NCBI RefSeq assembly: GCF_002835935.1
Contig: NZ_PJCF01000087.1
Span: forward strand, 124,001 to 188,000
Length of the DNA: 64,000 nt
DNA from: Paraglaciecola sp. MB-3u-78
GTDB taxonomy: Bacteria; Pseudomonadota; Gammaproteobacteria; Enterobacterales; Alteromonadaceae
Direction of reading: 5' to 3'
In this document: piece after piece, positions 1,999-61,679 of the stretch
Numbering within the stretch: position 1 is the first letter of the stretch
Layout of the letters: each line of letters opens with the position of its first letter
The notes under the pieces: model-generated
Told to the model about the DNA's origin: nothing
The model's input: only the letters and a program-made list of their open reading frames with translations
Databases searched by the model: none
Made by a program: the position numbers and the translations under genes

Positions 1999-2975
1999 TT
2001 ACCCACATTACGATGCAAATGCACGCAACCAATTACCTTGAAGAACGTCGCCGGCTTGGTTTTGATCTGCGCTCGGTAGGCTATTCTGTCAATAGTTTTG
2101 CAGGCTATGTTGACTCTCTTAATTTAGAGGGGCCACTGACCATCGAGGTCATGACCGCTTGGGCACAGTGCGACAAAGGAAATAGCGGCAATCCCAAGAC
2201 ATGGGCGCGGCGCCTGGGCAAGTTACGTCCATTTACCCGTTACCTGCAACAATTTGAACCGCTTACAGAAGTGCCTAACGACTTCACCTTTGGCCAAACC
2301 GGGCAGAGGCCAGCACCACATATCTATATTGAGCAGGAAGTCATCGAATTGCTGGCTGCAGCACGTAGTCTCGGCCCGTTCCCTGGATTACGAGGTGCAA
2401 CCTACGAAACACTGTTTGGCTTAATGGCTTCGACAGGACTACGTGTTTCAGAAGCAGTAAATTTACTGGAGACAGATGTTGACCTGAAGGCGGGTATGCT
2501 GATTATCCGGATGACCAAGTTCGCCAAATCACGCTATGTGCCGATGCACCCGAGCGTGGTCAACGTACTCAGACGTTATCAATCCTTACGCAATTTACAC
2601 ATTGAATTTACCGAAGAAATGCCTTTCTTTGTGGGCACTCGCGGTCGTCGTAAAGGTCATTGTTTGGGATTGCGCCAGGTACATAGAGTCTTTGCGGGCT
2701 TGCGCGATCAATTAAAATGGCTCAATCGCGGCACTAACGATGCCCCTCGCATTCACGACCTGCGACACACATTTATCGTTAATCGCGTGATGCTTTGGCA
2801 TTCTCAGGGCGTGAATGTCGATCAGCAGATGCTGGCATTGTCCACATATGTGGGGCACGCAAAGGTAACCAATACCTATTGGTATCTCAGCGGTGTACCG
2901 CAACTCATGACCGTGGTGGCAAATAAATTTGAAGCGTTTACGCAAATGCAGGGAGGTGAGCCATGTCTGAAATAA
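1995..2975 (+). CDS. Tyrosine recombinase, second of the RIT trio (RitB-like)
   Basis: This is a 326-residue tyrosine recombinase. It starts at the ATG that overlaps the previous stop; an in-frame TTG at 1977 is less likely. The catalytic set looks complete: Arg in TGLRVSEAVNL, HDLRHT, GHAKVTNT and the Tyr in NTYWYLSG. It overlaps the third recombinase by 13 bases. Its place as the middle gene of three overlapping recombinase genes is the main reason for calling it RitB-like. No partner such as an excisionase is seen. Confidence 0.9.
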   Translation: MITHITMQMHATNYLEERRRLGFDLRSVGYSVNSFAGYVDSLNLEGPLTIEVMTAWAQCDKGNSGNPKTWARRLGKLRPFTRYLQQFEPLTEVPNDFTFGQTGQRPAPHIYIEQEVIELLAAARSLGPFPGLRGATYETLFGLMASTGLRVSEAVNLLETDVDLKAGMLIIRMTKFAKSRYVPMHPSVVNVLRRYQSLRNLHIEFTEEMPFFVGTRGRRKGHCLGLRQVHRVFAGLRDQLKWLNRGTNDAPRIHDLRHTFIVNRVMLWHSQGVNVDQQMLALSTYVGHAKVTNTYWYLSGVPQLMTVVANKFEAFTQMQGGEPCLK

Positions 2976-3979
2976 TAGCGCCACGCTCTGTATCATTTGC
3001 ATCCTTGATTCAGCAATTTTTTACCGAGTACCTGGTAAAACAGCGTGCAGTGAGTCCACGTACTATTGCTTCTTACCGGGATGCGATGATGTTGTTTCTG
3101 GATTTCGCGCATGAACGTTTGGGCAAGTCTCCGACAGCACTTAGCCTGTCGGACTTTGATCCGGATTTGATTCTGGCATTTCTGGATCACTTGGAAATTG
3201 ACCGACACAATTCGGTTCGTAGTCGAAACCTCCGGCTGACCGCGTTACGTTCATTCCTGAAATTCGCGGCACGGCGTGATGTATCCTCTTTCTACTTCAT
3301 CGAGAGTGCGCTGGGTGTACCGATGAAACGTTTTGAACGACCGATGCTTGGATTTCTGTCGCGCGAGGAGATGTTGGCAGTGCTGGGTCAGCCAGGCGAT
3401 ACATGGACATCCAAGCGTGACCATTTGTTGTTGACTTTGCTATACAACACCGGAGCGAGAGTCTCGGAAATTATCGGCATACGTGTCTGTGATGTTGTTT
3501 TGGATGTAGCAGCCTGTGTACACCTACTCGGCAAGGGACGTAAGCAACGCTCAACACCTTTGTGGAAAAGCACTGTTCAGGAAATTCGGGCTTGGCTTAA
3601 ATACAACCCAACGTTTGGGAGGGATGCTGCCCTGCTGCCAAATCGTGCTGGACACGCAATGACACGCGGTAACGTATCGCAACGCCTCAATATCGCAGTA
3701 GTCAAGGCGACCGAGAAATTCAGCAGCTTATCCAAACGAAGTATTTCGCCGCACACAATTCGGCATACGACTGCAATGCATTTACTGCAATCAGGTGTCG
3801 ATTTTAGTGTGATTGCGTTATGGCTCGGGCATGAAAGCATGATCACCACCCATCGATACGTAGAGGCAAACTTGGAGATGAAAACGAAGGCGCTGGCAAA
3901 GCTTCAAGAGCCCGATACAAAAATGCATCTCTATCATCCCGCAGATGACGAACTGATGCAGTTCCTGCAGTCGCTGTAA
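2963..3979 (+). CDS. Tyrosine recombinase, third of the RIT trio (RitC-like)
   Basis: This is a 338-residue phage-integrase-type recombinase. The ATG at 2963 is preceded by a strong GGGAGGTGAG site that lies inside the end of the upstream gene. An N-terminal core-binding domain (about residues 10-95) is followed by a catalytic domain with Arg in TGARVSEIIG, HTIRHT, LGHES and the Tyr in THRYVEAN. About 35 residues follow the catalytic Tyr, a slightly long tail for the family. All three recombinases keep an intact active site, so the element may still be mobile. Confidence 0.9.
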   Translation: MSEIIAPRSVSFASLIQQFFTEYLVKQRAVSPRTIASYRDAMMLFLDFAHERLGKSPTALSLSDFDPDLILAFLDHLEIDRHNSVRSRNLRLTALRSFLKFAARRDVSSFYFIESALGVPMKRFERPMLGFLSREEMLAVLGQPGDTWTSKRDHLLLTLLYNTGARVSEIIGIRVCDVVLDVAACVHLLGKGRKQRSTPLWKSTVQEIRAWLKYNPTFGRDAALLPNRAGHAMTRGNVSQRLNIAVVKATEKFSSLSKRSISPHTIRHTTAMHLLQSGVDFSVIALWLGHESMITTHRYVEANLEMKTKALAKLQEPDTKMHLYHPADDELMQFLQSL

Positions 3980-4034
3980 AATTATGTACAGTTCGCTACC
4001 AGCAGTGTCTAGTAGCGTATGGGGTGACGGGCAA

Positions 4035-4068
4035 AACTATACATAGTTAGCTTCTGTGCATAGGTGCC
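4035..4068. repeat. Right inverted repeat of the RIT element
   Basis: This is an exact 34-bp reverse complement of 601-634. It is followed directly by a palindrome whose arms, TGCCACTATGTA (4065-4076) and TACATAGTGGCA (4083-4094), pair perfectly around a 6-base loop. That palindrome is only partly matched at the left end. Confidence 0.9.
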
Positions 4069-32822: not shown

Positions 32823-33932
32823 TTAAGGTTGATCTAACTCTTTTGTAAAAACGTGTTTACCAAAGATGCTTTGTATCACTGATACACCGCCTTTACACAA
32901 CAAGTGATAAATAAGGATATGCAAGGGCATTTTTTGAAAGTGCCCTCGGATCAATACAGCAAACTCAGCGAGTGCAAAAAATTTAGGCTTACACAAAGGG
33001 TGATTAGGTTTTAAGGTCTTTTCGTAGATAAAGTCTACAAACGCTATATTCCAAGGGCAGAATTGACTTATTTCTTTTTGTACAGACTCAGGGACCTCAG
33101 TCTTCAATATTTTTTGTGTATATCGACAAGCTAAGAACAACTCCAAACCAAAATCCGTTTCTTTAGCTAAAGTAATAAGGTCTAACCAAAACGCTTCATT
33201 ATTGTTTGTGGTTATTAATGTATGTAAATCAATCAGATCCCTGTAACCTTTTTTAACCTCTTCATTAAAAAACAAATGTATCAGACTATGCAACGTCATG
33301 GCTGCAAAAGAAAGAATTTGAAAACCATCTTCAGTGGTGACCGTGTTGGTAGCAAATTTATCAGCATCTAGATGCCTACCGGAAATAATCGGTACTATAT
33401 TGTGGTGAACATCAACAATGGTGCCACGCTTGCCGTGTCTTAAGGGGGGGATTTCGTGGGCCCACTTTCGATAGTATTTTTCATCGTGTTCGGTTAACTC
33501 TTCAGACAACCAACCAATTAGACATAGTCTTTTTTCAATCGCATCGATGGATTTTTTATCAGCCAATATGTCGATATCATTATAGATACGAGTATCACCT
33601 ACTGGTGCGCCTGAAAGTGTATATCCTGCCCCCTTCAAAAAAATCAGGTATTGTGGCTTGTCAGCTAACTCTCGTTTTAGTTCAGCAGCTTCAAACACCA
33701 CTTGTTTTTTATGGTTTTGTGCAAGCACATCAGCATTTAAAAAATGTCGTTGAGTTTGCTTTGGAATTTGCTCAAAAATACCTGCTTGTTTAAACGTTGA
33801 TGAATAGCAAGCCAATAACTGTTGATGACGTAAAATCAGCACCAGTTGTTGCCATTGTTTAGGTGTAAACGCCAGTGTAGATTTTGGTGCGATAAATGCC
33901 TGGCATACATCGTCAGCAGACAGCTTATTCAA
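32823..33932 (-). CDS. HPr-rel-A locus copy 1: nucleotidyltransferase-family protein
   Basis: This 369-residue protein is of the NTP_transf_5-like nucleotidyltransferase family. The core is FLKGAGYTLSGAPVGDTRIY followed by NDIDILAD (the DxD metal site), then EKYYRKWAHEIPPLRHGKRG and TIVDVHHNI. The start is a TTG at 33932 that overlaps the kinase stop by 8 bases; AGGA lies 11 bases before it. It is last in a minus-strand operon of Tat protein, PqqD-like protein, HprK-like kinase and this gene. It is homologous to the protein at 37846-38949. A nucleotidyl-transfer role is inferred from the fold, and the acceptor is unknown. Confidence 0.82.
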   Translation of the reverse strand: MNKLSADDVCQAFIAPKSTLAFTPKQWQQLVLILRHQQLLACYSSTFKQAGIFEQIPKQTQRHFLNADVLAQNHKKQVVFEAAELKRELADKPQYLIFLKGAGYTLSGAPVGDTRIYNDIDILADKKSIDAIEKRLCLIGWLSEELTEHDEKYYRKWAHEIPPLRHGKRGTIVDVHHNIVPIISGRHLDADKFATNTVTTEDGFQILSFAAMTLHSLIHLFFNEEVKKGYRDLIDLHTLITTNNNEAFWLDLITLAKETDFGLELFLACRYTQKILKTEVPESVQKEISQFCPWNIAFVDFIYEKTLKPNHPLCKPKFFALAEFAVLIRGHFQKMPLHILIYHLLCKGGVSVIQSIFGKHVFTKELDQP

Positions 33933-34794
33933 AATCTATTATTTCCTGCTCTAAAAACGCGGCCACTTGGGCTAAATCATTATGAAATATTTCAAAGGTT
34001 TGCACGTTTTCAATAACATTGGTCAAAGTACTAAAAGCAGTTTCTCTCAATACACTGTAATTAAAAGCATTGTCTACTAACTGCATAAAAGCTTGAGTTT
34101 TATCCAGTTGATAAATTTGTAAATCTTGATTGGCACGGTAATTTGGAAAAACCACCCCCACCAGCTCTGCAGTGTTCGTTTGATTTTCCCAACTGGATTC
34201 AGGTGGTGAAAGATGGATCACGTCCCCTTTATGGGTATCTTTGGCAATATCCGAAAACTTACCATCAGGAAATAACGTCTTGGCAATATCGATAGATTGG
34301 TTTTTCAAACAAATGGGCCTTACAAAAGGTACCACTGTTTGGGTATTTGGAATGATGAGCGCCATTTCATCAGATAATAGCCGCCAGCCATTATGGGCCA
34401 AGTAGGCGGTCAGTGTGCTTTTTCCTGAGCCAGGGGGGGCAGGAAATAAAATGGCTTTATTACCTTTTGCCAATACAGCCGAATGAATAATCACATGTTG
34501 TACTTCATTACCCGCAACTGTCCAGTTCATTCCCCACTCTAAAAACGCATAAGCCTTTTGAAAACTCAGTGGTTTAAAGGGCTCTTGTTGATCGCAAAAA
34601 AACCGCGCTTGAGGCTTGATAAACGAACGAATACCAGAGGACTTTTGTACCGACAATTCATAATCTGCGACTTCCGTACTCAGCTTTCTAAAACGACTAC
34701 CATATATAGTAGACAGGTTCTGAATAACTTGAGGAAGAGCCGTATTAACTGAAAAAGAAAAAGGATGTAAATCGATAAAATAATTATCAGACAT
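33925..34794 (-). CDS. HPr-rel-A locus copy 1: HprK-related kinase A
   Basis: This 289-residue protein resembles the C-terminal kinase domain of HPr kinase/phosphorylase. The P-loop PAPPGSGKSTL lies at about residues 118-128, followed by GWRLLSDEMALI, where SDE matches the acidic pair of HprK. An N-terminal region (about 1-80) precedes AYAFLEWGMNW, a stretch shared with copy 2. It overlaps the PqqD-like gene by 8 bases and the nucleotidyltransferase gene by 8, so the three are translationally coupled. The phospho-acceptor is not known; the Tat protein upstream is a candidate substrate. Confidence 0.88.
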   Translation of the reverse strand: MSDNYFIDLHPFSFSVNTALPQVIQNLSTIYGSRFRKLSTEVADYELSVQKSSGIRSFIKPQARFFCDQQEPFKPLSFQKAYAFLEWGMNWTVAGNEVQHVIIHSAVLAKGNKAILFPAPPGSGKSTLTAYLAHNGWRLLSDEMALIIPNTQTVVPFVRPICLKNQSIDIAKTLFPDGKFSDIAKDTHKGDVIHLSPPESSWENQTNTAELVGVVFPNYRANQDLQIYQLDKTQAFMQLVDNAFNYSVLRETAFSTLTNVIENVQTFEIFHNDLAQVAAFLEQEIIDFE

Positions 34795-34996
34795 CAGTAT
34801 TTTTACAATCTAAGGGTAACAAAATATTTTTTTGGATGAGCGATCTAATTGCAATGTTTTGCGTGGTTTTTTTATCTAAAATAATCTCACCAGACAGCAC
34901 TTTTAAAATGTCAGCTTCTGACATTAAAACACTTAATGTTTCCCCGGAGTGTACGTCTAGAAACACACAACCAGATTGATCAGAAAAGGAGTGCAT
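34787..34996 (-). CDS. HPr-rel-A locus copy 1: PqqD-like small protein
   Basis: This 69-residue protein resembles the PqqD-type peptide chaperones of HPr-rel-A systems. The ATG at 34996 is chosen because AAAGGAG sits just upstream; an ATG 20 codons earlier lacks a site. The body (SGCVFLDVHSGETLSVLMSE) is the usual winged-helix PqqD fold, in which a short domain binds a leader peptide. Its stop overlaps the kinase start. In known PqqD systems the partner is a peptide-modifying enzyme. None of the radical-SAM type is seen here. Confidence 0.75.
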   Translation of the reverse strand: MHSFSDQSGCVFLDVHSGETLSVLMSEADILKVLSGEIILDKKTTQNIAIRSLIQKNILLPLDCKNTDV

Positions 34997-35040
34997 TTGT
35001 ACTCCTTTGTGTAAATAATTATTCAACACTAAATTTTTTA

Positions 35041-35598
35041 TTAAATAGCTGGGCAAATGACACTAGATCCGGACAAACTATTAGTACCGATTGTACTCCA
35101 GAGCAAGCTCGCAACACCACTTGGATCAGCAGAAGCTTGGGTATATAAGTAATCAGCAAAATTAGATGGAATGTTGTTGTGTTGAGATAATACTGGGTAA
35201 TTGATCCCATGTGAACCGTGGTTTACCGCGTTAAACAACATGATTAAAATCGCAGCATTTACATTGCTAGGATCGGGGTCTCCATCTCGCAATATATATT
35301 CAGCACTAAGGTCACCGGTGCCATTAATTGGGCTTACACCAAAACCAAAATAAGAGGAGAAGGTACCAGTAATCCGATCAGCCACCTGACATGCATCAAG
35401 TAGCATGGTTGCAGCACCACCATTAAAATCAGAACCATGGCCTGAAGCCACTATTGAACCTGCAATGCCAGCCCAAGCTGAACGCCCCGGAATAGATGCA
35501 ATCACAGCACCTGCTGCTGTACGTTTCAAAAACGTACGGCGTTGTTTGGTATTTTTAGAAACCGAAGATTCTATTCCTTTTGGATTATCAAGACTCAT
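35041..35598 (-). CDS. HPr-rel-A locus copy 1: Tat-signal secreted protein
   Basis: This is a 185-residue protein with a clear twin-arginine signal, KQRRTFLKRTAAGAVIAS, and a likely cleavage after SAWA (about residue 43). The mature part is rich in small and polar residues and has no known domain. It contains a DACQVAD segment and ends SSVICPAI. AAGGAA precedes the ATG. It is first in the operon, 44 bases before the PqqD-like gene, under a sigma-54-type promoter. It looks like the substrate or cargo of the system. It is distantly similar to the protein at 36084-36659. Confidence 0.8.
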   Translation of the reverse strand: MSLDNPKGIESSVSKNTKQRRTFLKRTAAGAVIASIPGRSAWAGIAGSIVASGHGSDFNGGAATMLLDACQVADRITGTFSSYFGFGVSPINGTGDLSAEYILRDGDPDPSNVNAAILIMLFNAVNHGSHGINYPVLSQHNNIPSNFADYLYTQASADPSGVASLLWSTIGTNSLSGSSVICPAI

Positions 35599-35640
35599 AA
35601 AATTCCTTAATTTAAATTATTTTTACTAATCCCTCATGTA

Positions 35641-35657
35641 TAGCATAAATTATGCCA
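35641..35657 (-). promoter_or_regulatory. Sigma-54 (-24/-12) promoter, HPr-rel-A copy 1
   Basis: On the minus strand, TGGCATAATTTATGCTA has GG and GC separated by exactly 10 bases. It lies about 45 bases before the ATG of the Tat protein. Confidence 0.75.
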
Positions 35658-35708
35658 GACTGCAACTCATTGAAATACATGACAAAAAAAATAACTAAAA
35701 ACCAATTG

Positions 35709-35725
35709 TGTAAAAATACCTGACA
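35709..35725 (-). promoter_or_regulatory. 17-bp upstream dyad, HPr-rel-A copy 1
   Basis: On the minus strand it reads TGTCAGGTATTTTTACA, fitting TGTCA-N7-TTACA. It starts 69 bases before the -24 GG of the copy 1 promoter. Confidence 0.7.
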
Positions 35726-35909
35726 ATATATCCATATACCGAGATCCTAGCCTTGAGTAATTGTATCTAGGGTGATCTAATTTACAATTTAACTTTTAGT
35801 GTTCGTAATTGTTTTAACTGTGCCCTAGTTGCATAAAATGAGACAACACATAAAAAAACACTTATCATAAAAATTAAAGGTAATGCAGTCATCCAAAATG
35901 AAAAGAAAC

Positions 35910-35926
35910 TGTCAGTATTTTTTACA
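35910..35926 (+). promoter_or_regulatory. 17-bp upstream dyad, HPr-rel-A copy 2
   Basis: TGTCAGTATTTTTTACA fits TGTCA-N7-TTACA. It starts 81 bases before the -24 GG at 35991, the same spacing as at the PEP-CTERM gene. Confidence 0.75.
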
Positions 35927-35989
35927 ATCTACAAGTAAAAAATTATTTTGTTTTTCATAACCTGTTGTTTTATTTAAATACATTTATTT

Positions 35990-36006
35990 TGGCGCGATTT
36001 ATGCTT
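35990..36006 (+). promoter_or_regulatory. Sigma-54 (-24/-12) promoter, HPr-rel-A copy 2
   Basis: TGGCGCGATTTATGCTT has GG (35991-35992) and GC (36003-36004) separated by 10 bases. The 3' half, ATTTATGCT, is identical to the copy 1 promoter. Confidence 0.8.
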
Positions 36007-36083
36007 ATGAATAATGTTCAAAATTTATGGCTTCATAACCTATATTCGAATTGTTTGGTTACTTGTTTATAACGGAGAAAATA

Positions 36084-36659
36084 ATGTCTACTCAAGGCGA
36101 GAATAACAAATTGGTCCAAGATTTTGGATTAACTACAACTCGACGTCAATTTGTGAAAGGAGCAGCGATTGCAGCGCCTATCATTGCAGCGGTGTCTTCT
36201 CGCCCAGTGTGGGCGAATACTGCATCAGCTGTATCGGGTAATTTATCAGGTAATCTTTCACAACCTACCGAAAAAATCGACCCTTATAATGGTAAGAGCC
36301 CCGGTTACTGGCAAGGCGGTCAACCCACTGGTGGTAGAATTGATGACCTACTAGGTGTTAATAGTAACACCCCATTTAGTTCAATCTTCACTCAAGTTAC
36401 TCCTCCAGCCTATACAGCTACTTATCCAAAGACTCTTTTAGAAGCGATTCAAGACTCAGGCGGGACTAATCAACCTGAAAGATTTGCTGCAGCTGCTTAT
36501 TTGAATTCAATCGATGATTTTAATTATCCATATACTCCTGCAGAAATTGTTGACTTTTATGGTTATTACGCTAGGGGCGAGATTACATACGCTGAAATTC
36601 ATGCTACTTTTGTTAAACTAACTCATTGCGGTACAACAGAAGCTTTAGCTACTTGTTAA
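36084..36659 (+). CDS. HPr-rel-A locus copy 2: Tat-signal secreted protein
   Basis: This is a 191-residue protein with a twin-arginine signal, TTRRQFVKGAAIAAPIIAA, and a likely cleavage after PVWA (about residue 44). The ATG at 36084 follows GGAG. The mature part includes KSPGYWQGGQPTGG, AAYLNSIDDFNYPY and a C-terminal THCGTTEALATC with two cysteines. The same layout (AAILIMLFNAVNHG, INYP) is faintly visible in the copy 1 protein. It has no known domain. As the first gene after a sigma-54 promoter it is probably the secreted product handled by the downstream genes. Confidence 0.8.
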   Translation: MSTQGENNKLVQDFGLTTTRRQFVKGAAIAAPIIAAVSSRPVWANTASAVSGNLSGNLSQPTEKIDPYNGKSPGYWQGGQPTGGRIDDLLGVNSNTPFSSIFTQVTPPAYTATYPKTLLEAIQDSGGTNQPERFAAAAYLNSIDDFNYPYTPAEIVDFYGYYARGEITYAEIHATFVKLTHCGTTEALATC

Positions 36660-36673
36660 AGTAAGTTCGGCTA

Positions 36674-36934
36674 GTGGCCAATCGAAAGTATAAGTTGAGC
36701 TCATTTGTATTAATGAGCTCTCTTAATGATTGTTTCTCGGTGTATGATGAAAAATATTCTAATACATATGTATTAGATAAACGTTATAAGTGGATTCTTG
36801 AGAATTTGAAATTTGATTGCTTTTTATTGGAAGAACTCTGTAATTCTCAGCAAGAGAGTCAATTGAGCTCTGAAGAATTGTTAAGTGTTATCGAACAATT
36901 TTTAGATTCCAATATTGTTGTGCAAATATCATAA
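36674..36934 (+). CDS. HPr-rel-A locus copy 2: PqqD-like small protein
   Basis: This protein of up to 86 residues is in the position of PqqD in copy 1. FSVYDEKYSNTYVLDKRYKW aligns loosely with SGCVFLDVHSGETLSVL of copy 1. Starts at GTG 36674 or ATG 36713 (MSSLNDCFSV) are both possible; the ATG matches the copy 1 start better, and neither has a strong ribosome site. Its TAA stop lies in ATAA, exactly where an ATGA overlap with the kinase start would be expected. Confidence 0.65.
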   Translation: MANRKYKLSSFVLMSSLNDCFSVYDEKYSNTYVLDKRYKWILENLKFDCFLLEELCNSQQESQLSSEELLSVIEQFLDSNIVVQIS

Positions 36935-37845
36935 GTAGTATTTTCGTAAATTCTCTAACTCTTAGCGAATTTGCGACTCGCTTAAGGTCAGGTATAAAAT
37001 TCAATATTGGAACTTTTGTCTTTTCACTTCGCACAGATATTTCAAACGTTGCCGCTGAGATACACAGTTTATATTCTGAATATTCGTTATTACCTCCATC
37101 CACATTTAGCGATTTTCAAATTGTTCTAAGGCGCCCTTACAATCTGCGTCGTTGGTTATATCCTAAAGTTGACTTTTATTTTGACGGTAGAAAACCTTTT
37201 AAGCCACTTCCATTAAGACAAGCTTATGCCATGTTGGAATGGGGAATGAATTGGTGTATTGCGAATCATGCACATCACTATTTAATTTTACATTCTGCAG
37301 TGCTAGAAAAAAATGGTAAAACAATTATTTTTCCAGCCCCTCAAGGTTCAGGTAAAAGCACCTTGTGTGCTGCTTTAGCGGGAAAAGGCTGGAGATTGTT
37401 TTCAGATGAATTGGCGCTAATATCATTAAAAAATGGTGAACTTCATCCCTCTACGCGCCCCATAAATCTTAAAAACAACTCTATTAAGGTCATTAAAGAA
37501 TTCATTCCAGAGAGTATTAACAGTGGTTTACATCTAGATACCCATAAAGGCACAGTTTCATTGTTTAAGCCCTCTAAAGAAAGTGTACAGTCTAGTAAAA
37601 TAGCTGGGCAAGCCCATTTTGTTGTGTTCCCAAAATATGAAGTAGGCTCACCATCTTGCATGAAAGAATTAGACGACTCCAAATCGCTTCCAATGCTAAT
37701 TGAAAATAGTTTTAATTATGATGTGTTGGGAACTGAAGGATTTACAGCTATGTGTGATTTGGTAAATAAGGTGGATTGCTATGAATTTTCTTACAGCGAC
37801 TTGAATGATGCCATTGCTACCTTCGATAAATTAATTAATGAATAA
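36931..37845 (+). CDS. HPr-rel-A locus copy 2: HprK-related kinase A with non-standard start
   Basis: The frame is open from before 36931 to 37845, about 304 residues. The N-terminal part (LTLSEFATRLRSG, then FVFSLRTDISNVAAE) aligns with copy 1, so it is real coding sequence. There is no ATG, GTG or TTG in frame before the ATG at 37231. The expected start at 36931 reads ATA, and an ATT follows at 36940. The kinase core is intact: PAPQGSGKSTLCAAL and GWRLFSDELALI. Either a rare start is used, or only a shorter protein from 37231 is made. The next gene follows the stop directly. Confidence 0.75.
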   Translation: MSSIFVNSLTLSEFATRLRSGIKFNIGTFVFSLRTDISNVAAEIHSLYSEYSLLPPSTFSDFQIVLRRPYNLRRWLYPKVDFYFDGRKPFKPLPLRQAYAMLEWGMNWCIANHAHHYLILHSAVLEKNGKTIIFPAPQGSGKSTLCAALAGKGWRLFSDELALISLKNGELHPSTRPINLKNNSIKVIKEFIPESINSGLHLDTHKGTVSLFKPSKESVQSSKIAGQAHFVVFPKYEVGSPSCMKELDDSKSLPMLIENSFNYDVLGTEGFTAMCDLVNKVDCYEFSYSDLNDAIATFDKLINE

Positions 37846-38949
37846 ATGACGTTATTAACAACCACCCTTATATCACCATTTAGCGTTACCGCTCTTTCAG
37901 AAGAAGACTGGGAGTTACTGATTAGGCAAGCAAGGGCGGCGAACCTTTTAGGGCGGCTGTATTATTTATTCAGTTTTAACAAGCTCACTCAGAATATAGA
38001 AGAGAAATACCTTTGGCATTTTGAGTCAGCATATAGACTTTCAGACCGGCTAAAAAAAAACGCGCTCCGAGAAATTGACGAACTGACTTCGGCACTGGGT
38101 CAAATTAATGTCAAACCCATATTTTTAAAAGGTGCAGCTTACCAAGCTGCCGACTTACCTTGTTCAAATGGTAGGTTAATGTCAGACATTGATTTATTGG
38201 TTGATGAAAATGTTCTTTCACAAGTACAAAGTCACTTACGAAAGCACAGCTGGATCCCCACTGCTATTGACGACTATGACGAAAAATATTACAGAGAATG
38301 GATGCACGAAATTCCGCCTCTAAAACACGCTACACGTCAGACAACACTTGATGTTCATCATAATATATTGCCTTTAACTAACAAAAACACTATTGATGCA
38401 AGTCGCTTAGAGTTTAGAAAGGTTTATCATGAATGGTTCGGCGAAGTCCAAACATTGAATCCGTTAGATACTGTGATCCACAGCTCTGTTCATCTATTTA
38501 CAGAAAGTGAATTTGATAATGGCCTGAGAGATTTGTCAGATTTAGACATGCTAATTCGACACTTCACATCTACTAATAAGAATTATGTCAACGAGCTAGT
38601 AATCAGGGCAAACGAACTTGAACTTGCTGACTATCTTAGCTTGACTCTGAGATATACAAAGATGGTTTTGAATACGCCCATTGCCCCTAACGCGATTTCA
38701 TCACTCAATATCAGGCATCAATCACGATTATCGCAAATATTCTGGGACTTTTGTTTTAAAAATATATTTAAGCCTCACCACTCATCAACTAAAAATATTG
38801 ACATGAGGTTGGCGAAATTCATCTTGTATTGGAGAGGTCATCTAATAAAAATGCCACTTCGAATTCTGCTTCCTCATTTAGCGATTAAAAGTTATATGCA
38901 ACTAAAAGACATGGTTACGCAATCCAATTCATCCAAAAAGACCGTTTAA
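37846..38949 (+). CDS. HPr-rel-A locus copy 2: nucleotidyltransferase-family protein
   Basis: This 367-residue protein is homologous to the product of 32823-33932. FLKGAAYQAADLPCSNGRLM is followed by SDIDLLVD (DxD metal site), then EKYYREWMHEIPPLKHATRQ and TLDVHHNILP. The ATG directly follows the kinase TAA. It is the last gene of the copy 2 operon and ends five bases from a convergent protease gene. The substrate is unknown. Conservation of the fourth gene in both copies argues that it belongs to the system. Confidence 0.82.
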   Translation: MTLLTTTLISPFSVTALSEEDWELLIRQARAANLLGRLYYLFSFNKLTQNIEEKYLWHFESAYRLSDRLKKNALREIDELTSALGQINVKPIFLKGAAYQAADLPCSNGRLMSDIDLLVDENVLSQVQSHLRKHSWIPTAIDDYDEKYYREWMHEIPPLKHATRQTTLDVHHNILPLTNKNTIDASRLEFRKVYHEWFGEVQTLNPLDTVIHSSVHLFTESEFDNGLRDLSDLDMLIRHFTSTNKNYVNELVIRANELELADYLSLTLRYTKMVLNTPIAPNAISSLNIRHQSRLSQIFWDFCFKNIFKPHHSSTKNIDMRLAKFILYWRGHLIKMPLRILLPHLAIKSYMQLKDMVTQSNSSKKTV

Positions 38950-38954
38950 ATGTT

Positions 38955-39731
38955 TTACAATTTAATACCTTTTTTCTTTGCCAATTCAATTAAGTATTTA
39001 ACCGGTATGGCGTAACTAATACCAGATGGTTTTTCAAGCACTGTTTCTTTCGATTCTTTTACAAAAACTTTGTTTAATATGCCAACAACCTCGCCGCTTT
39101 GAGCATCATATAACGGGCTACCACTGTTGCCAGGATACGCAGTAATATCTAGCTGATAAATCATAAATTTTTTATCCAGTCTATCTAAGATATTCATAGA
39201 CAACTGGCTTGAATGTTGTGTTGGAATAACGTCAGGTGTCGTTGCTGCAATGATGCCTCTATGTGTGGCTGGGTAAAGCCCCAACACGGCCCCTATTGGA
39301 AAACCAGTTAATAAAACCTCGGTACCATCTTCTACATAATTGGGTGACGACAGTTTGAGGGGAGTCAAAGGGCTAGGCAATTTTAAAATGGCTAAATCGT
39401 GTTCACGATCTCTAGCAATTATTTCTGCTTTGGCTATTTTGGGCTTGCTACCCGTACCTGTAAATACAATATGGTACTGCACTTTTTGTGGGTCTAGCTC
39501 TTTATCAATTACGTGATAATTGGTAGCCACTAATGTACCGTCGCCAAAAACGAAACCCGTACCTTGCAATTGATGGGTTTGAACACCTAACGCATCATAT
39601 AAACCAACTCCTACCACTGAAGGTTTTACTTTGGCTACAATTTCGGTGATTGAATGGCTATGGGCATTGGCACTTAATACCAATGAGATCCCTAGCAAAG
39701 CCTTCAAAAGCAATAATTTACGTATAAACAT
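38955..39731 (-). CDS. Secreted trypsin-like serine protease
   Basis: This is a 258-residue exported protease of the trypsin/DegP-like type without a PDZ domain. A signal peptide (MFIRKLLLLKALLGISLVLSANA) is followed by the triad: His in ATNYHVID, Asp in EHDLAILKLP and Ser in YPGNSGSPLYD. It would act in the periplasm. It is convergent with the HPr-rel-A copy 2 operon and divergent from the epimerase gene. A role in processing the nearby secreted proteins is possible but unproven. Confidence 0.88.
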   Translation of the reverse strand: MFIRKLLLLKALLGISLVLSANAHSHSITEIVAKVKPSVVGVGLYDALGVQTHQLQGTGFVFGDGTLVATNYHVIDKELDPQKVQYHIVFTGTGSKPKIAKAEIIARDREHDLAILKLPSPLTPLKLSSPNYVEDGTEVLLTGFPIGAVLGLYPATHRGIIAATTPDVIPTQHSSQLSMNILDRLDKKFMIYQLDITAYPGNSGSPLYDAQSGEVVGILNKVFVKESKETVLEKPSGISYAIPVKYLIELAKKKGIKL

Positions 39732-41736: not shown

Positions 41737-42587
41737 ATGACAAAACTGATAGTTCCGATTTTATCAGGCGGTGGAACTAAGTTAGCCGCACATATTGGAA
41801 TTTTAGATGCCATTTACACTTTGGGCATCGACTTTCAACATATAGTGGGCGTTTCTGGTGGCTCTATTGTTGCCGCTTTACATAGTAGTGGTATGCCATT
41901 AGAACAAATAAAACAATTAGCTTTGGATACAAACTTTAAAAAATTTAGAGGGTTTAGCCTCATAACGTTAATTTTTCATGGTGGTCTGAGTTCAGGAAAT
42001 GCGTTTGAACGCTGGATTGACACGCAATTACAAGGCAAACAATTTAAAGACATTAACAAAGATTTACACATTTTAGCGACAGATGTTAACGGTGGTGGTC
42101 CCATTGTTTTTAATAAACAAAATTCACCTGACTTAAAAGTGTCAAAAGCTGTCCGCTTTTCTTTAGCTTTCAGTCATATAAGGATCATATACTGGTCGAC
42201 GGTGCAGTTTTGTCAGAAGATGCCTTGTTTAAAGATTGGTCTGGCGATGGCACTAGGGTTATATGTTTTAGGCTAAAAAGCGACCAAATTACAGGTCAAA
42301 AATTTAAAAAAAGTTGGTTACCCTTAGGTCAGTATGTGATGATGCTAATAAGAACGTTTATGACTGCGATGTCTAGGGAATACGTACATGACAACTATTG
42401 GAAAAATACTATAGTTGTAAATACCGGCGCACTTTCGCCTGTTGACTTCAATATTTCAATAGAACAGAAAGAAGAGTTGTACCGAATCGGATATCAAACT
42501 GCGCTAGAATTCATCCCCAAAAGAATACGTTTGCAATTAATCGATCACGGTAAGATAGTAACGGACACACATTTTGAAGAAATTTAG
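41737..42587 (+). pseudogene. Patatin-like phospholipase broken by a frameshift
   Basis: The N-terminal part, 41737 to about 42165, carries the patatin glycine-rich loop LSGGGTKLAAH and the nucleophile elbow GVSGGS. Near 42165-42180 the frame changes. The rest continues in the frame ending at 42587, with the catalytic-dyad Asp in LVDGAVLSEDALFKDW. The first frame stops at 42276 after non-homologous residues. Some residues between AVRFSLA and SYKDHILVDGA also seem missing, so a small deletion is more likely than a one-base error. Patatins are acyl hydrolases. The gene overlaps the acyltransferase start by 14 bases. Confidence 0.75.
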
Positions 42588-44688: not shown

Positions 44689-46233
44689 GTAACTACTCAG
44701 CACATAATCTAGTTTATTTTTAACGATCAAAAATTAAAAAATGATCGACTTGCTTGATCATTTCTAAGCGTTATCATACTGTTTTATTTCGATAATTACG
44801 TGGCTAAATGAAAGTAAGCGGCATTGATATTGAGTCGAATATCAATAACATTAAAGCACAAATTGAAGCGGACAATACATTGTCACCTTCAATGCGTACT
44901 GCTATGGATTTATTGCTTCTTATTGTCACGTTACTCTGTCAACGGCTTGGGCTTAACAGTAATAACAGCAGTATACCGCCCTCGTCCGATCAAAATAGAA
45001 AGAAAAATTCAAAAGGCAACAGTACTAAAAAATCAGGTGGACAAAAGGGGCATAAAGGCACAACGCTACCACTTGATGACAACCCTGACATCACACATAA
45101 ATTAATCGTTGATAGCACACTTTTACCGCCCGGTAACTATACTGATATGGGTGAAGAGGTGCGGCAAGTGGTCGATATTGAGTTTAAGCGTGTCGTCACT
45201 GAATATCGCGCACAAATACTTGAGAATGAGTTAGGTCAACGCTTCGTTGCCCCATTTCCCCAAGACGTTAATAGCCGTATTCAATATGGTATTGGGTTAA
45301 AAGCTCATGCGGTTTACCTGTCCCAATATCAATTACTGCCTTATGAGCGCATTCGTGAGTATTTCACTGACCAGCTTAATATACCTTTGAGCAGCGGCAG
45401 TCTTTTCAACTTTATCAATACCGCTTTTACCAAACTGGAAGAGACGCAAGCATTAGATATTATCAAAGCGAACTTGAGAAAAGAAAAGACATTACATACC
45501 GATGAAACTGGCATCAATATCAACGGAAAAAGACAATGGCTACATAACGCTTCGTCTCTGGATTGGACGTATTTATCAGCCCATGAAAAACGAGGCCATG
45601 ATGCCATGGATGAGATTGACATATTACCCCAGTTCAACGGTGTGATGTGCCATGACCATTGGAAACCTTATTATCGTTATGAGTGCCTACATTCATTATG
45701 CAATGCGCATCACCTGCGAGAATTAACTCGAGCGTATGAGCAAGATAATCAAGCTTGGGCTGAGGAAATACGGGTGTTTTTAGTTAAGCTCAATCAAGAG
45801 GTAGATAAGGCTGGCGGGTTACTCAGTGTTGAAAGACAAGACACCTTGCGACGTCACTATCAAGCGATTTTAAAGGCAGGAGAAAAAGAAAGTCCTGCGC
45901 CGATACCAGTGAAAGGTAAGCGAGGACGGCCTAAAAGAACTCAATCACGTAACCTACTTGAGCGATTACAAAACTATGAAAGCGATGTACTTAGATTCAT
46001 GACGGATGAGGCAGTGCCATTCACTAATAATCAGGGCGAAAATGATTTGAGGATGGCAAAGGTTCAACAAAAGATATCGGGATGTTTTAGAAGTGCTAAC
46101 GGAGCCAAAATGTTTTTTGGATTACGTAGCTATCTGTCGAGCTGCAAAAAACAAGGGATCAGTGGGTCCACGGCATTAACGTTATTATTAAATGGCATGC
46201 TGCCTAATATCTTTATACCCGCTGAGTAGTTAC
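44689..46233 (+). mobile_element. IS66-family insertion sequence, complete (1545 bp)
   Basis: The 13-bp inverted ends GTAACTACTCAGC (44689-44701) and GCTGAGTAGTTAC (46221-46233) are perfect and start with GTAA, as in IS66. They are flanked by an 8-bp target duplication, GCTTTTTT (44681-44688 and 46234-46241). It carries one transposase gene and no tnpA or tnpB, as in the compact ISBst12-like group. Confidence 0.92.
44808..46229 (+). CDS. IS66-family transposase (TnpC type)
   Basis: This is a 473-residue DDE transposase. LNSNNSSIPPSSDQNRKKNS and KKSGGQKGHKGTTLP form the IS66 N-terminal region with a predicted coiled coil before it. The catalytic part has the first Asp in LHTDETGININ, the second in VMCHDHWKPYY and the Glu in FTNNQGENDLRMAK. 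SLCNAHHLRELTR is also typical. The stop codon lies inside the right inverted repeat. No frameshift is seen, so it should be active. Confidence 0.94.
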   Translation: MKVSGIDIESNINNIKAQIEADNTLSPSMRTAMDLLLLIVTLLCQRLGLNSNNSSIPPSSDQNRKKNSKGNSTKKSGGQKGHKGTTLPLDDNPDITHKLIVDSTLLPPGNYTDMGEEVRQVVDIEFKRVVTEYRAQILENELGQRFVAPFPQDVNSRIQYGIGLKAHAVYLSQYQLLPYERIREYFTDQLNIPLSSGSLFNFINTAFTKLEETQALDIIKANLRKEKTLHTDETGININGKRQWLHNASSLDWTYLSAHEKRGHDAMDEIDILPQFNGVMCHDHWKPYYRYECLHSLCNAHHLRELTRAYEQDNQAWAEEIRVFLVKLNQEVDKAGGLLSVERQDTLRRHYQAILKAGEKESPAPIPVKGKRGRPKRTQSRNLLERLQNYESDVLRFMTDEAVPFTNNQGENDLRMAKVQQKISGCFRSANGAKMFFGLRSYLSSCKKQGISGSTALTLLLNGMLPNIFIPAE

Positions 46234-59795: not shown

Positions 59796-61679
59796 ATGTG
59801 TGGAATTGCTGGTTTTACCCATTTTTCAGGGAATATGGGTGATAAAGACATGCTGAAAAAAATGGGCGATAGCATTTATCACCGTGGCCCCGATGCGGGT
59901 GGCGAATACATCAACGAGCATATCGGTCTAGCTCATCGTAGGTTAGCGATTATAGATTTGTCAGATGCCGGTATCCAACCTATGACCTCCCATGATGGCA
60001 AATACATCATCGTATTTAATGGCGAAATCTATAATTTCCAGACAATAAGAGATGAGCTAAGCGCCGCAGGTTACCCGTTTAAAACCCATACAGATACAGA
60101 AGTCATCTTGGCACTTTATGCCACCGAAGGCGAAAAAATGCTAAGCAAGTTAAACGGCATGTTTGCTTTTGCTTTGTGGGACACCACCTCAGAAAAACTA
60201 ATGATAGCCAGAGATCGTATGGGCAAAAAGCCTTTATACTATCTGCAAACTGAAACCCAGTTTGCCTTTGCTTCAGAAATAAAAGCCTTACTGACCTTAC
60301 CCAATGTACCAAGAGATATTCGCTTAGATGCGGTTTACGATTTTTTTGCTTACCAATATGTACCTGATCCTAAAAGTATTTTTACCCACATTCATAAACT
60401 CCCCCCCGGCCACTATATGACCATCGATGCCTCGGGTGTTAATATTCAACAATACTGGGATGTATCCTTTAAACATACCAGCGATGAAAGTGAAGAGGTA
60501 CTAACACAGAAACTTCGCGAGCTAGCTACTCACTGTACCAAACAGCGCATGGTGAGTGACGTGCCACTAGGCGCATTTTTAAGTGGAGGGGTTGACTCCA
60601 GTGGTGTTGTAGCCATGATGGCCACTAACAGTAAAACACCTGTCACCACCTGTTCAATTGGTTTCGACGAAAAAAAATTCAACGAAACTGAATTTGCCAA
60701 AGAAGTCGCGAATAAATATCACACTGACCACCACGAATTTACGGTCCATCAAAATGTTGCTGATAATTTAGAAAAAATTGTCGCTTATTTTGATGAACCC
60801 TTTGCAGACCCTTCATTAGTCCCTACTTTTTTTGTATCAGAGCTGGCTCGCCAACAAGTCACAGTGGCCATTGCTGGTGATGGTGGCGACGAAGTATTTG
60901 CCGGTTATGAAAAATACACCACAGACGCCACAGAGAATCGTTTACGCAATAAATTTCCTAAATTTATACGCAAACACCTTTTTCCAAAACTCGCGGACTT
61001 ATTATCTAACAGTAATGCGACTGTTTTTCGCAAAGGTAAATCGCTGCTTACCAGTTTAAGCCAAGAACCAGCAATGGGCTTTTATACCACCAACTCACAG
61101 ATTGATGACAGACAGTGGCAAAAGTTAGCCAAACAAGAAGTAAAAGAAAAGCTAGGTGACTATCACCCATCTAAAATTACTATCGACGCCTATGAAAAGT
61201 CAGACGGCCCAGACCATCTAGCAAAAATACTCTACACCGATATGAAAACCTATTTGCCCGGCGGTATATTGGTTAAAGTAGACCGTATGAGCATGGCTAA
61301 TTCATTAGAGGTTAGAGCGCCGTTACTCGACAAAGACGTGGTAGAGTTTTCTGCCACTGTACCTTCAGAAATGAAATTTAAAAACGGCGAAAAAAAACAT
61401 ATTCTAAAAGAAGCCTTTAAGCCTATGTTGCCCGATGACATATTATATCGTAAGAAAATGGGCTTCTCGGTACCTTTAGCAAGCTGGTTCAGACATGAAA
61501 TTAAAGACTTAGCCCAACGCCATTTAATAGAGCAAGCTCAAGGTCTTAAAAGCATTTTCAACCACAACCAAGTAGTGACGCTTTGGAATGAACATCAAAA
61601 TGGTAACGCCGACCACAGTGCATTGCTGTGGAGTATGTTAATGTTTGAAATGTGGTGGGTAAAGTATGCACATGGCTAA
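59796..61679 (+). CDS. XrtA/PEP-CTERM system amidotransferase (AsnB-like)
   Basis: This is a 627-residue class II glutamine amidotransferase fused to an asparagine-synthetase domain. The nucleophile is Cys2 in MCGIAGF. The glutaminase part ends near residue 190, and the synthetase PP-loop is FLSGGVDSSGV (about residues 260-270). AIAGDGGDEVFAGYEKY and MANSLEVRAPLLD follow. In XrtA clusters it is thought to amidate a sugar acid of the exopolysaccharide rather than make free asparagine. That fits the UDP-glucuronate epimerase nearby. Confidence 0.93.
   Translation: MCGIAGFTHFSGNMGDKDMLKKMGDSIYHRGPDAGGEYINEHIGLAHRRLAIIDLSDAGIQPMTSHDGKYIIVFNGEIYNFQTIRDELSAAGYPFKTHTDTEVILALYATEGEKMLSKLNGMFAFALWDTTSEKLMIARDRMGKKPLYYLQTETQFAFASEIKALLTLPNVPRDIRLDAVYDFFAYQYVPDPKSIFTHIHKLPPGHYMTIDASGVNIQQYWDVSFKHTSDESEEVLTQKLRELATHCTKQRMVSDVPLGAFLSGGVDSSGVVAMMATNSKTPVTTCSIGFDEKKFNETEFAKEVANKYHTDHHEFTVHQNVADNLEKIVAYFDEPFADPSLVPTFFVSELARQQVTVAIAGDGGDEVFAGYEKYTTDATENRLRNKFPKFIRKHLFPKLADLLSNSNATVFRKGKSLLTSLSQEPAMGFYTTNSQIDDRQWQKLAKQEVKEKLGDYHPSKITIDAYEKSDGPDHLAKILYTDMKTYLPGGILVKVDRMSMANSLEVRAPLLDKDVVEFSATVPSEMKFKNGEKKHILKEAFKPMLPDDILYRKKMGFSVPLASWFRHEIKDLAQRHLIEQAQGLKSIFNHNQVVTLWNEHQNGNADHSALLWSMLMFEMWWVKYAHG

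Follow-up and report, generated by a model that had tools for sequence, protein, structure and literature searches.

The closest described precedents for the genes analyzed here come from two types of peptide pathways. According to the available parts of the report on the linear polyphosphorylated peptide (LPP) pathway of Bacillota (Nat Commun 2026, PMC13381572), a discrete recognition element (RRE) for ribosomally synthesized and posttranslationally modified peptides (RiPPs), an HprK-like kinase and an NTP transferase are encoded by loci found among polysaccharide genes. The precursors, of 35 to 200 aa, carry a YxxP leader motif, a SipW-like peptidase and an MsbA-like exporter belong to the pathway, and the kinase LppK phosphorylates Ser3 of the core. 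For the lasso peptide pseudomycoidin, the available parts of two other reports (PMC9266682, PMC8498205) describe phosphorylation of the C-terminal serine by the kinase PsmK and addition of one or more hexoses by the nucleotidyltransferase homologue PsmN; the kinases of phosphorylated lasso peptides carry a His-Lys-Asp-Asp motif (PMC9266682). The present analysis concerns an HPr-rel-A type system in a stretch of 64,000 nt (here, the window; all coordinates are window positions) of contig NZ_PJCF01000087.1 from Paraglaciecola sp. MB-3u-78. The window contains two divergent operons, copy 1 on the minus strand and copy 2 on the plus strand, each encoding a twin-arginine translocation (Tat) protein (T1 and T2), a PqqD-like protein (P1 and P2), an HprK-related kinase A (K1 and K2) and a nucleotidyltransferase (N1 and N2). 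We report that HPr-rel-A systems regularly include a Tat gene as their fourth component, and we propose that the Tat protein is the substrate of the other three proteins.

An earlier note on this DNA, made from the sequence alone, had placed the eight genes in this order and at the positions collected in Table 1, had assigned them to an HPr-rel-A type system and had described the kinases and nucleotidyltransferases as homologous but well diverged between copies. All of this was borne out: both kinases exceeded the cut-off of TIGR04352 and both nucleotidyltransferases that of PF14907, and pairwise alignment of copy 1 with copy 2 gave identities of 36% for the kinases, 35% for the nucleotidyltransferases and 17% for the PqqD-like proteins. 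T1 and T2 could be aligned over the signal only (E 0.084). A nucleotidyltransferase-family partner (PF14907) is a defining part of the HPr-rel-A system.

The earlier note had also linked the Tat genes to the kinase and PqqD pair, and a survey of co-occurrence upheld this link. Among 394 genomes of the order, kinases over the TIGR04352 cut-off were present in 33 (35 matches in all). All of these kinases lie in the window or in one of 33 fetched loci (34 loci); 7 of the 11 weaker matches were also fetched, and a scan of named genomes contributed a further 80, the best of 271 relatives, for a total of 121 loci. Presence of RR and SPG[YFW][YFW] was the criterion for picking the 29 open reading frames (ORFs) of the named loci that seeded a Tat profile; the serine motif described below played no part in the selection. 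With this profile, members (115 ORFs) were recovered from 113 of the 121 loci, namely, 34/34 over-cut-off order loci, 79/80 named loci and 0/7 weak-kinase loci; in the sole named locus lacking a member (L130), just 361 bases precede the kinase. The Tat gene was located upstream of the kinase and on the same strand in 112 of the 115 cases, with 1016 to 1521 bases from the end of the Tat gene to the end of the kinase gene. The remaining three were found downstream of the kinase in rearranged loci (one in L122 and two in L138). The two in L138 (positions 2541-4043 of that locus) form a tandem pair behind a single kinase/nucleotidyltransferase pair, as expected if several substrates share one enzyme set, and in L140 one Tat gene is flanked by two kinase-nucleotidyltransferase sets.

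Searching the 394 genomes with an alignment model of the Tat family afforded 38 matches, in 30 of the 33 kinase genomes versus 8 of the 361 others (Fisher p 2.8e-34). The locus profile did recover members from the three kinase genomes that escaped this model (G098, G172 and G282; L044, L064 and L052, respectively). Seven of the eight kinase-less matches were confined to model positions 77-185, corresponding to the SPGYW domain, and the eighth (G369) to the signal. Three of these seven were examined; the proteins are longer or of another build, the serine motif is absent ahead of the domain, and inspection by eye showed no signal of the Tat type. The TPGYWK/SPGYW domain occurs in the C-terminal part of such proteins (L172:1043-1876, L175:1342-3594 and L176:1685-2503). 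At the family level, the search of 147 genomes gave 60 Tat-family matches, two of which (G1088 and G1147) span the signal plus the motif only, with E near 1e-3. Likeness of Tat signals alone was considered as the source of the family matches and rejected for the main set, because conserved columns are found beyond the signal as well, in the serine motif, in SPGYW, at W99 and in the LNA segment.

The RR pair was required of the 29 seeds only and was nonetheless invariant (115/115 members). Just after the signal, the end of which is itself conserved (columns 53-61), most members carry the motif C[ST]xSGxxSGNxS. The motif serines occupy columns 68 (110/115), 72 (114/115) and 76 (99/115), all three being present in 93/115 members, and the bracketing cysteines occupy columns 65 (104/114) and 84 (93/114). 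The two cysteines co-vary: both are present in 92, neither in 10 and one in 13 of the 115 members (Fisher p 8.6e-8). T1 and T2 have no cysteine at either column and a serine at all three motif columns. Beyond the motif, conservation is found at GxSPGYW, at W99 (95/100) and at N147 within the LNA segment (105/113), and the C-terminal domain diverges fast. The Tat protein family is undescribed: none of 78 members matched Pfam at E 0.01, a scan of NCBIfam gave stray or Tat-signal matches only, and the names among the 120 listed of the 212 homologues were "hypothetical protein" or none. In a model of T2 (mean pLDDT 69.5), confidence was low through residue 60, including the signal and the motif; the protein is predicted to be helical at residues 118-190, best scored at 131-180, and comparison of the model with the PDB returned nothing at E 0.001 (best match, E 3.6). 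Neither T1 (12.8 bits) nor T2 (16.0 bits) reached the 16.7-bit cut-off of the Tat-signal model TIGR01409. With a twin-arginine signal in each and a TatC encoded in the genome to which the window belongs, T1, T2 and the family qualify as predicted Tat substrates.

The relationship between the Tat protein and the kinase was investigated within the genus, in which a kinase match was present in 19 of 22 genomes, with two copies in the window's genome only, and a Tat gene in all 16 loci examined (L189 and L203 to L217). Mantel tests were performed on the 15 genus loci with a protease neighbor, L215 (no protease) and L189 and L217 (short contigs) being left out. Serine-motif distance correlated with kinase distance (r 0.72; p 0.0001) and, to a much lesser extent, with the distance of the flanking protease (r 0.23; p 0.044), the partial r for the kinase being 0.73. 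The sharpest single case of motif-kinase coupling is L210, with identities to copy 1 of 96% for the kinase, 81% for the nucleotidyltransferase, 92% for the protease, 100% for the motif and 41% for the C-terminal domain. The Tat ORF of L207 combines a T1-like signal with a mature part of another type, next to a kinase just 44% identical; this chimeric-looking gene suggests recombination within the signal.

In 12 of the 16 genus loci, a single cassette lies in one orientation between lysR/aceB and a trypsin-like protease gene; L209, L212, L215 and the contig-truncated L217 deviate from this arrangement. Copy 1 has the place and orientation of the single cassette of the genus, and copy 2 lies between copy 1 and the protease gene. 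In a kinase tree of 116 rows whose bootstrap had not settled, K1 belonged to a clade of 9 rows (100/99) and K2 to a clade of 4 rows (100/93). The earlier note had regarded the two copies as a duplication. Local duplication of one operon was rejected because the kinases fall in separate, well-supported clades and because 12/16 genus loci have just one cassette at this site. Copy 2 is most likely a distant lineage added beside copy 1. The protease has homologues in 12/34 order loci (the window included) and 25/80 named loci.

Next to the operons is an XrtA/PEP-CTERM exopolysaccharide locus (42574-62807), in which the models for the exosortase acyltransferase, PrsT and FemAB were over their cut-offs; the gene for XrtA itself lies about 61 kb away on this contig. 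For an asparagine synthase-like gene (59796-61679), 21 kb from the operons, the best model was that of the XrtA amidotransferase (TIGR03108; 712.1 bits, under the cut-off of 816.9), and the lasso model gave 318.8 bits (cut-off, 525). One or more of eight XrtA-locus markers (E 1e-25) were detected in 19/34 order loci, 38/80 named loci and 31/58 named loci of at least 12 kb, using scores as returned and with the window, L042, L044, L046 and L093, which supplied the markers, counting by construction. In a sample of 124 genomes, XrtA was over the cut-off in 20, including all 16 kinase genomes and 4 without a kinase (p 8.9e-17), a count which assumes that the sample is the first 124 genomes of the list, 66 of the misses carrying no individual name.

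What was observed is the four-gene set, the conservation of the serine motif, its co-variation with the kinase, the synteny and the link to XrtA; from these we infer RRE binding, phosphorylation, a second modification and a role for the product as follows. Each operon is probably a substrate-plus-modifier cassette, in which the PqqD-like protein would act as an RRE, holding the precursor of the Tat protein within the cytoplasm. Next, the HprK-related kinase would phosphorylate a serine of C[ST]xSGxxSGNxS, the likeliest candidates being S52 of T1 and S55 of T2, and the NTP_transf_5 protein may add a hexose or a nucleotide onto that phosphate. Export of the product by the Tat pathway and cleavage of the signal would put the modified serine close to the new N terminus, and the product would probably serve the XrtA-linked exopolysaccharide system. 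Assignment of the Tat protein as the precursor and of a motif serine as the target is based on analogy with the LPP and pseudomycoidin pathways. For the kinase, the H, K and D residues are invariant among 18 aligned sequences and the residue following D is an invariant E; the kinase profile aligned with HPr kinase 1jb1 (E 0.001) across the His, the P-loop Lys and the Asp. For the PqqD-like proteins, TIGR04353 matched 55 of 58 members, and a hidden Markov model (HMM) built from the PqqDs of other loci, the window being left out, gave P1 and P2 the scores listed in Table 1. An AlphaFold model of P1 (mean pLDDT 70.9) displayed the beta-beta-beta-alpha-alpha order of RREs, and its best matches in the PDB were lasso RREs with leader peptides (5v1u, 5v1v and 6jx3; E 0.03-0.1; TM about 0.4). 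The earlier note had seen in the paired Tat proteins and the duplication a complete secreted-protein modification or signaling module; a modification module fits best, the Tat family being a regular component, the duplication half of the argument found no support, and the modification would follow by analogy.

Several results weigh against this proposal. The earlier note had suggested profile searches with the kinase, NTP_transf_5 and HPr-rel-A PqqD models; the first two found both copies over the cut-offs, and P1 and P2 were among the three misses of TIGR04353, matching no curated PqqD model even at E 10. The RRE fold of the PqqD-like proteins is weakly supported, with a single modest P1 model, a best E of 0.03 and a TM of about 0.4. 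A [YW]xxP RRE-binding motif was found upstream of RR in 0/115 Tat members, and between RR and the second cysteine column in 2/115. The serine motif, bracketed by two cysteines in 92/115 members, could be structural. The signal and the C-terminal domain also track the kinase (r 0.76 and partial r 0.66 for the signal; partial r 0.57 for the C-terminal domain), so co-inheritance in one operon accounts for part of the correlation, and the lead of the motif over these two segments in partial r is a matter of nominal values only. The nucleotidyltransferase step would be the weakest, because deletion of lppN, encoding the NTP transferase of the LPP pathway, led to no change in the host used, according to the available part of that report (PMC13381572).

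The link with XrtA, both as locus markers and as the presence of XrtA in every kinase genome of the 124-genome sample, would be expected if the three enzymes made or modified a small molecule or an exopolysaccharide precursor, with the Tat protein as a periplasmic partner in binding, transport or assembly and not the substrate. We consider this unlikely: a PqqD/RRE protein serves to recognize peptides, the serine motif is, by nominal partial r, the Tat segment tracking the kinase most independently of the flank, and the fast divergence of the C-terminal domain is not what a conserved partner would show. The conserved signal end and the tracking of the kinase by the signal are in turn compatible with the PqqD-like protein and the kinase forming a proofreading chaperone pair for Tat cargo, comparable to redox-enzyme maturation chaperones, which would phosphorylate or hold the signal until folding and leave no lasting mark. 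This appears improbable, since it leaves the conserved serines past the cleavage site and the nucleotidyltransferase unexplained and since the cargo has no known domain by the Pfam search described above. A toxin-antitoxin-like arrangement, in which an NTP_transf_5 toxin is restrained by the kinase and the Tat protein is a passenger, would agree with the pairing of the kinase and nucleotidyltransferase genes and with the differing lineages at one genus site, but both the PqqD and the Tat partners are regular and the kinase resembles kinases of lasso-type loci, making it very improbable.

Extending the proposal of a substrate-plus-modifier cassette, the operons might specify a phospho-glycosylation system of a new kind, in which an RRE-guided kinase and nucleotidyltransferase mark a usually cysteine-bracketed serine loop on folded proteins that are exported by the Tat pathway and whose C-terminal domain diverges fast. 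Such a system would function solely alongside the XrtA exopolysaccharide machinery; the marked protein might anchor or prime the polymer, and swapping of cassettes at one chromosomal site would lead to serotype-like surface variation. We regard this extended version as speculative and rather doubtful.

Features of the two operons and of the adjacent gene are listed in Table 1. The earlier note had reported 8-base overlaps at both junctions after the PqqD-like gene of copy 1, which is correct with the listed starts. For T2, an alternative TTG start is possible at 36051. The K2 frame is open from 36874 to 37845 and its first ATG, GTG or TTG, at 37231, corresponds to residue 98 of the homologous protein. 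The ATT at 36940, 5 bases from the P2 stop codon, aligns with the start of the kinases of relatives; this apparent start reflects either use of a rare start codon or a change, by mutation or by an error in the sequence. Promoter searches in 35599-36083 were uninformative (6 matches versus 3.7 expected).

Table 1. Positions of the genes and motifs of the two HPr-rel-A type operons in the window
Feature	Coordinates	Strand	Evidence or remark
N1, copy 1 nucleotidyltransferase	32823..33932	-	PF14907 NTP_transf_5, 122.5 bits (cut-off 31.2); FLKGA, DIDIL and DVHHNI kept
K1, copy 1 HprK-related kinase A	33925..34794	-	TIGR04352, 304.4 bits (cut-off 200); H104, K125, D142 and E143 in invariant columns
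P1, copy 1 PqqD-like/putative RRE protein	34787..35056	-	Leave-window-out HMM, 20.0 bits; AlphaFold model
T1, copy 1 Tat protein, proposed substrate	35041..35598	-	RR signal; family model match in own genome, E 9.0e-10
T1 serine motif SIVASGHGS (S48, S52, S56)	35431..35457	-	Aligned with Tat family columns 68, 72 and 76
Divergent intergenic region separating the operons	35599..36083	.	Promoter-like matches not clearly above shuffles
T2, copy 2 Tat protein, proposed substrate	36084..36659	+	Family model match in own genome, E 7.1e-33
T2 serine motif SGNLSGNLS (S51, S55, S59)	36234..36260	+	S51 and S55 in nearly invariant family columns
P2, copy 2 PqqD-like/putative RRE protein	36674..36934	+	Leave-window-out HMM, 15.5 bits
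K2, copy 2 HprK-related kinase A (H118, K139, D156, E157)	36940..37845	+	TIGR04352, 367.6 bits (cut-off 200); apparent ATT start
N2, copy 2 nucleotidyltransferase	37846..38949	+	PF14907, 148.8 bits (cut-off 31.2)
Trypsin-like serine protease, recurrent neighbor and site marker, not a core part	38955..39731	-	PF13365, 90.2 bits

Within the adjoining XrtA/PEP-CTERM locus, an IS66-family transposase gene is present at 44808-46229 (283.5 bits). At 41737-42587, two overlapping ORFs of 179 and 125 aa presumably represent one patatin-like gene split over two frames.

Some of the nearest other kinases of the order sit in lasso-type loci, because lasso-type models were the best models in 4 of the 7 weak-kinase loci: a lasso cyclase model in L068, L069, L071 and L072 and a lasso PqqD model in L068, L069 and L072, all under the cut-offs. 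The remaining three weak-kinase loci have a small Tat-peptide arrangement. This arrangement belongs to a smaller second set, consisting of an HprK-like kinase of roughly 390 aa found in 9 of 147 family genomes (L066, L067, L070, L178 to L182 and L184) and preceded in 6 of the 9 by a Tat-type peptide of 59-69 aa with a short terminal core, e.g., APKSCRGNG. It is a minimal kinase-plus-Tat-peptide pair.

Comparison with the described systems places the window operons close to several of them. The likeness to paeninodin and pseudomycoidin, as far as the available parts of those reports show, is that a kinase acts on a serine of a peptide and a nucleotidyltransferase homologue adds hexose to it; the difference is that the serine in those pathways is the C-terminal residue of a macrolactam lasso. 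No lasso cyclase or B2 protease was found with the window gene set, and the window operons, with no cyclase alongside, are not a lasso cluster. With respect to XrtA/PEP-CTERM loci, the operons sit at the edge of one, but scans of the Pfam and NCBIfam libraries do not place the Tat family among the PEP-CTERM families, and it has a Tat signal instead. With respect to HPr-rel-A (TIGR04352 HprK_rel_A and TIGR04353 PqqD_rel_X), the kinase model is matched by both window copies; the model titles name no substrate, and the Tat family described here lies outside Pfam and, apart from Tat-signal or stray matches, outside NCBIfam. A full-text literature search, beyond whose reach most subscription journals lie, turned up no paper for the HPr-rel-A names and none for an exosortase together with PqqD. 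Over-cut-off HPr-rel-A kinases are encoded in 33/394 genomes of the order, 41/369 of the class and 61/398 of the phylum, these samples sharing some genomes. A substrate family and a candidate serine would turn this annotation label into a plain mass-spectrometry question, and the proposed substrate link would tie the HPr-rel-A system to exosortase and exopolysaccharide biology.

The LPP pathway, on the basis of the available part of its report, shares with the window operons an HprK-like kinase, a discrete RRE (the PqqD match here being weak), an NTP transferase, a serine near the start of the core as the phosphate site (a candidate site here) and a polysaccharide neighborhood. The HPr-rel-A Tat set is not a member of the LPP group, since no leader motif, SipW-like peptidase or exporter was found; Pfam and NCBIfam scans of the eight genes, the protease and further genes, all within the window, detected neither a SipW-like peptidase nor an MsbA-like exporter. 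In contrast to LPP precursors, the proteins here are mostly of about 180-300 aa and carry a Tat signal. If the chemistry proposed here holds, the HPr-rel-A Tat set would be a new variant of RRE-guided phosphorylation, widening it from short peptides to exported proteins.

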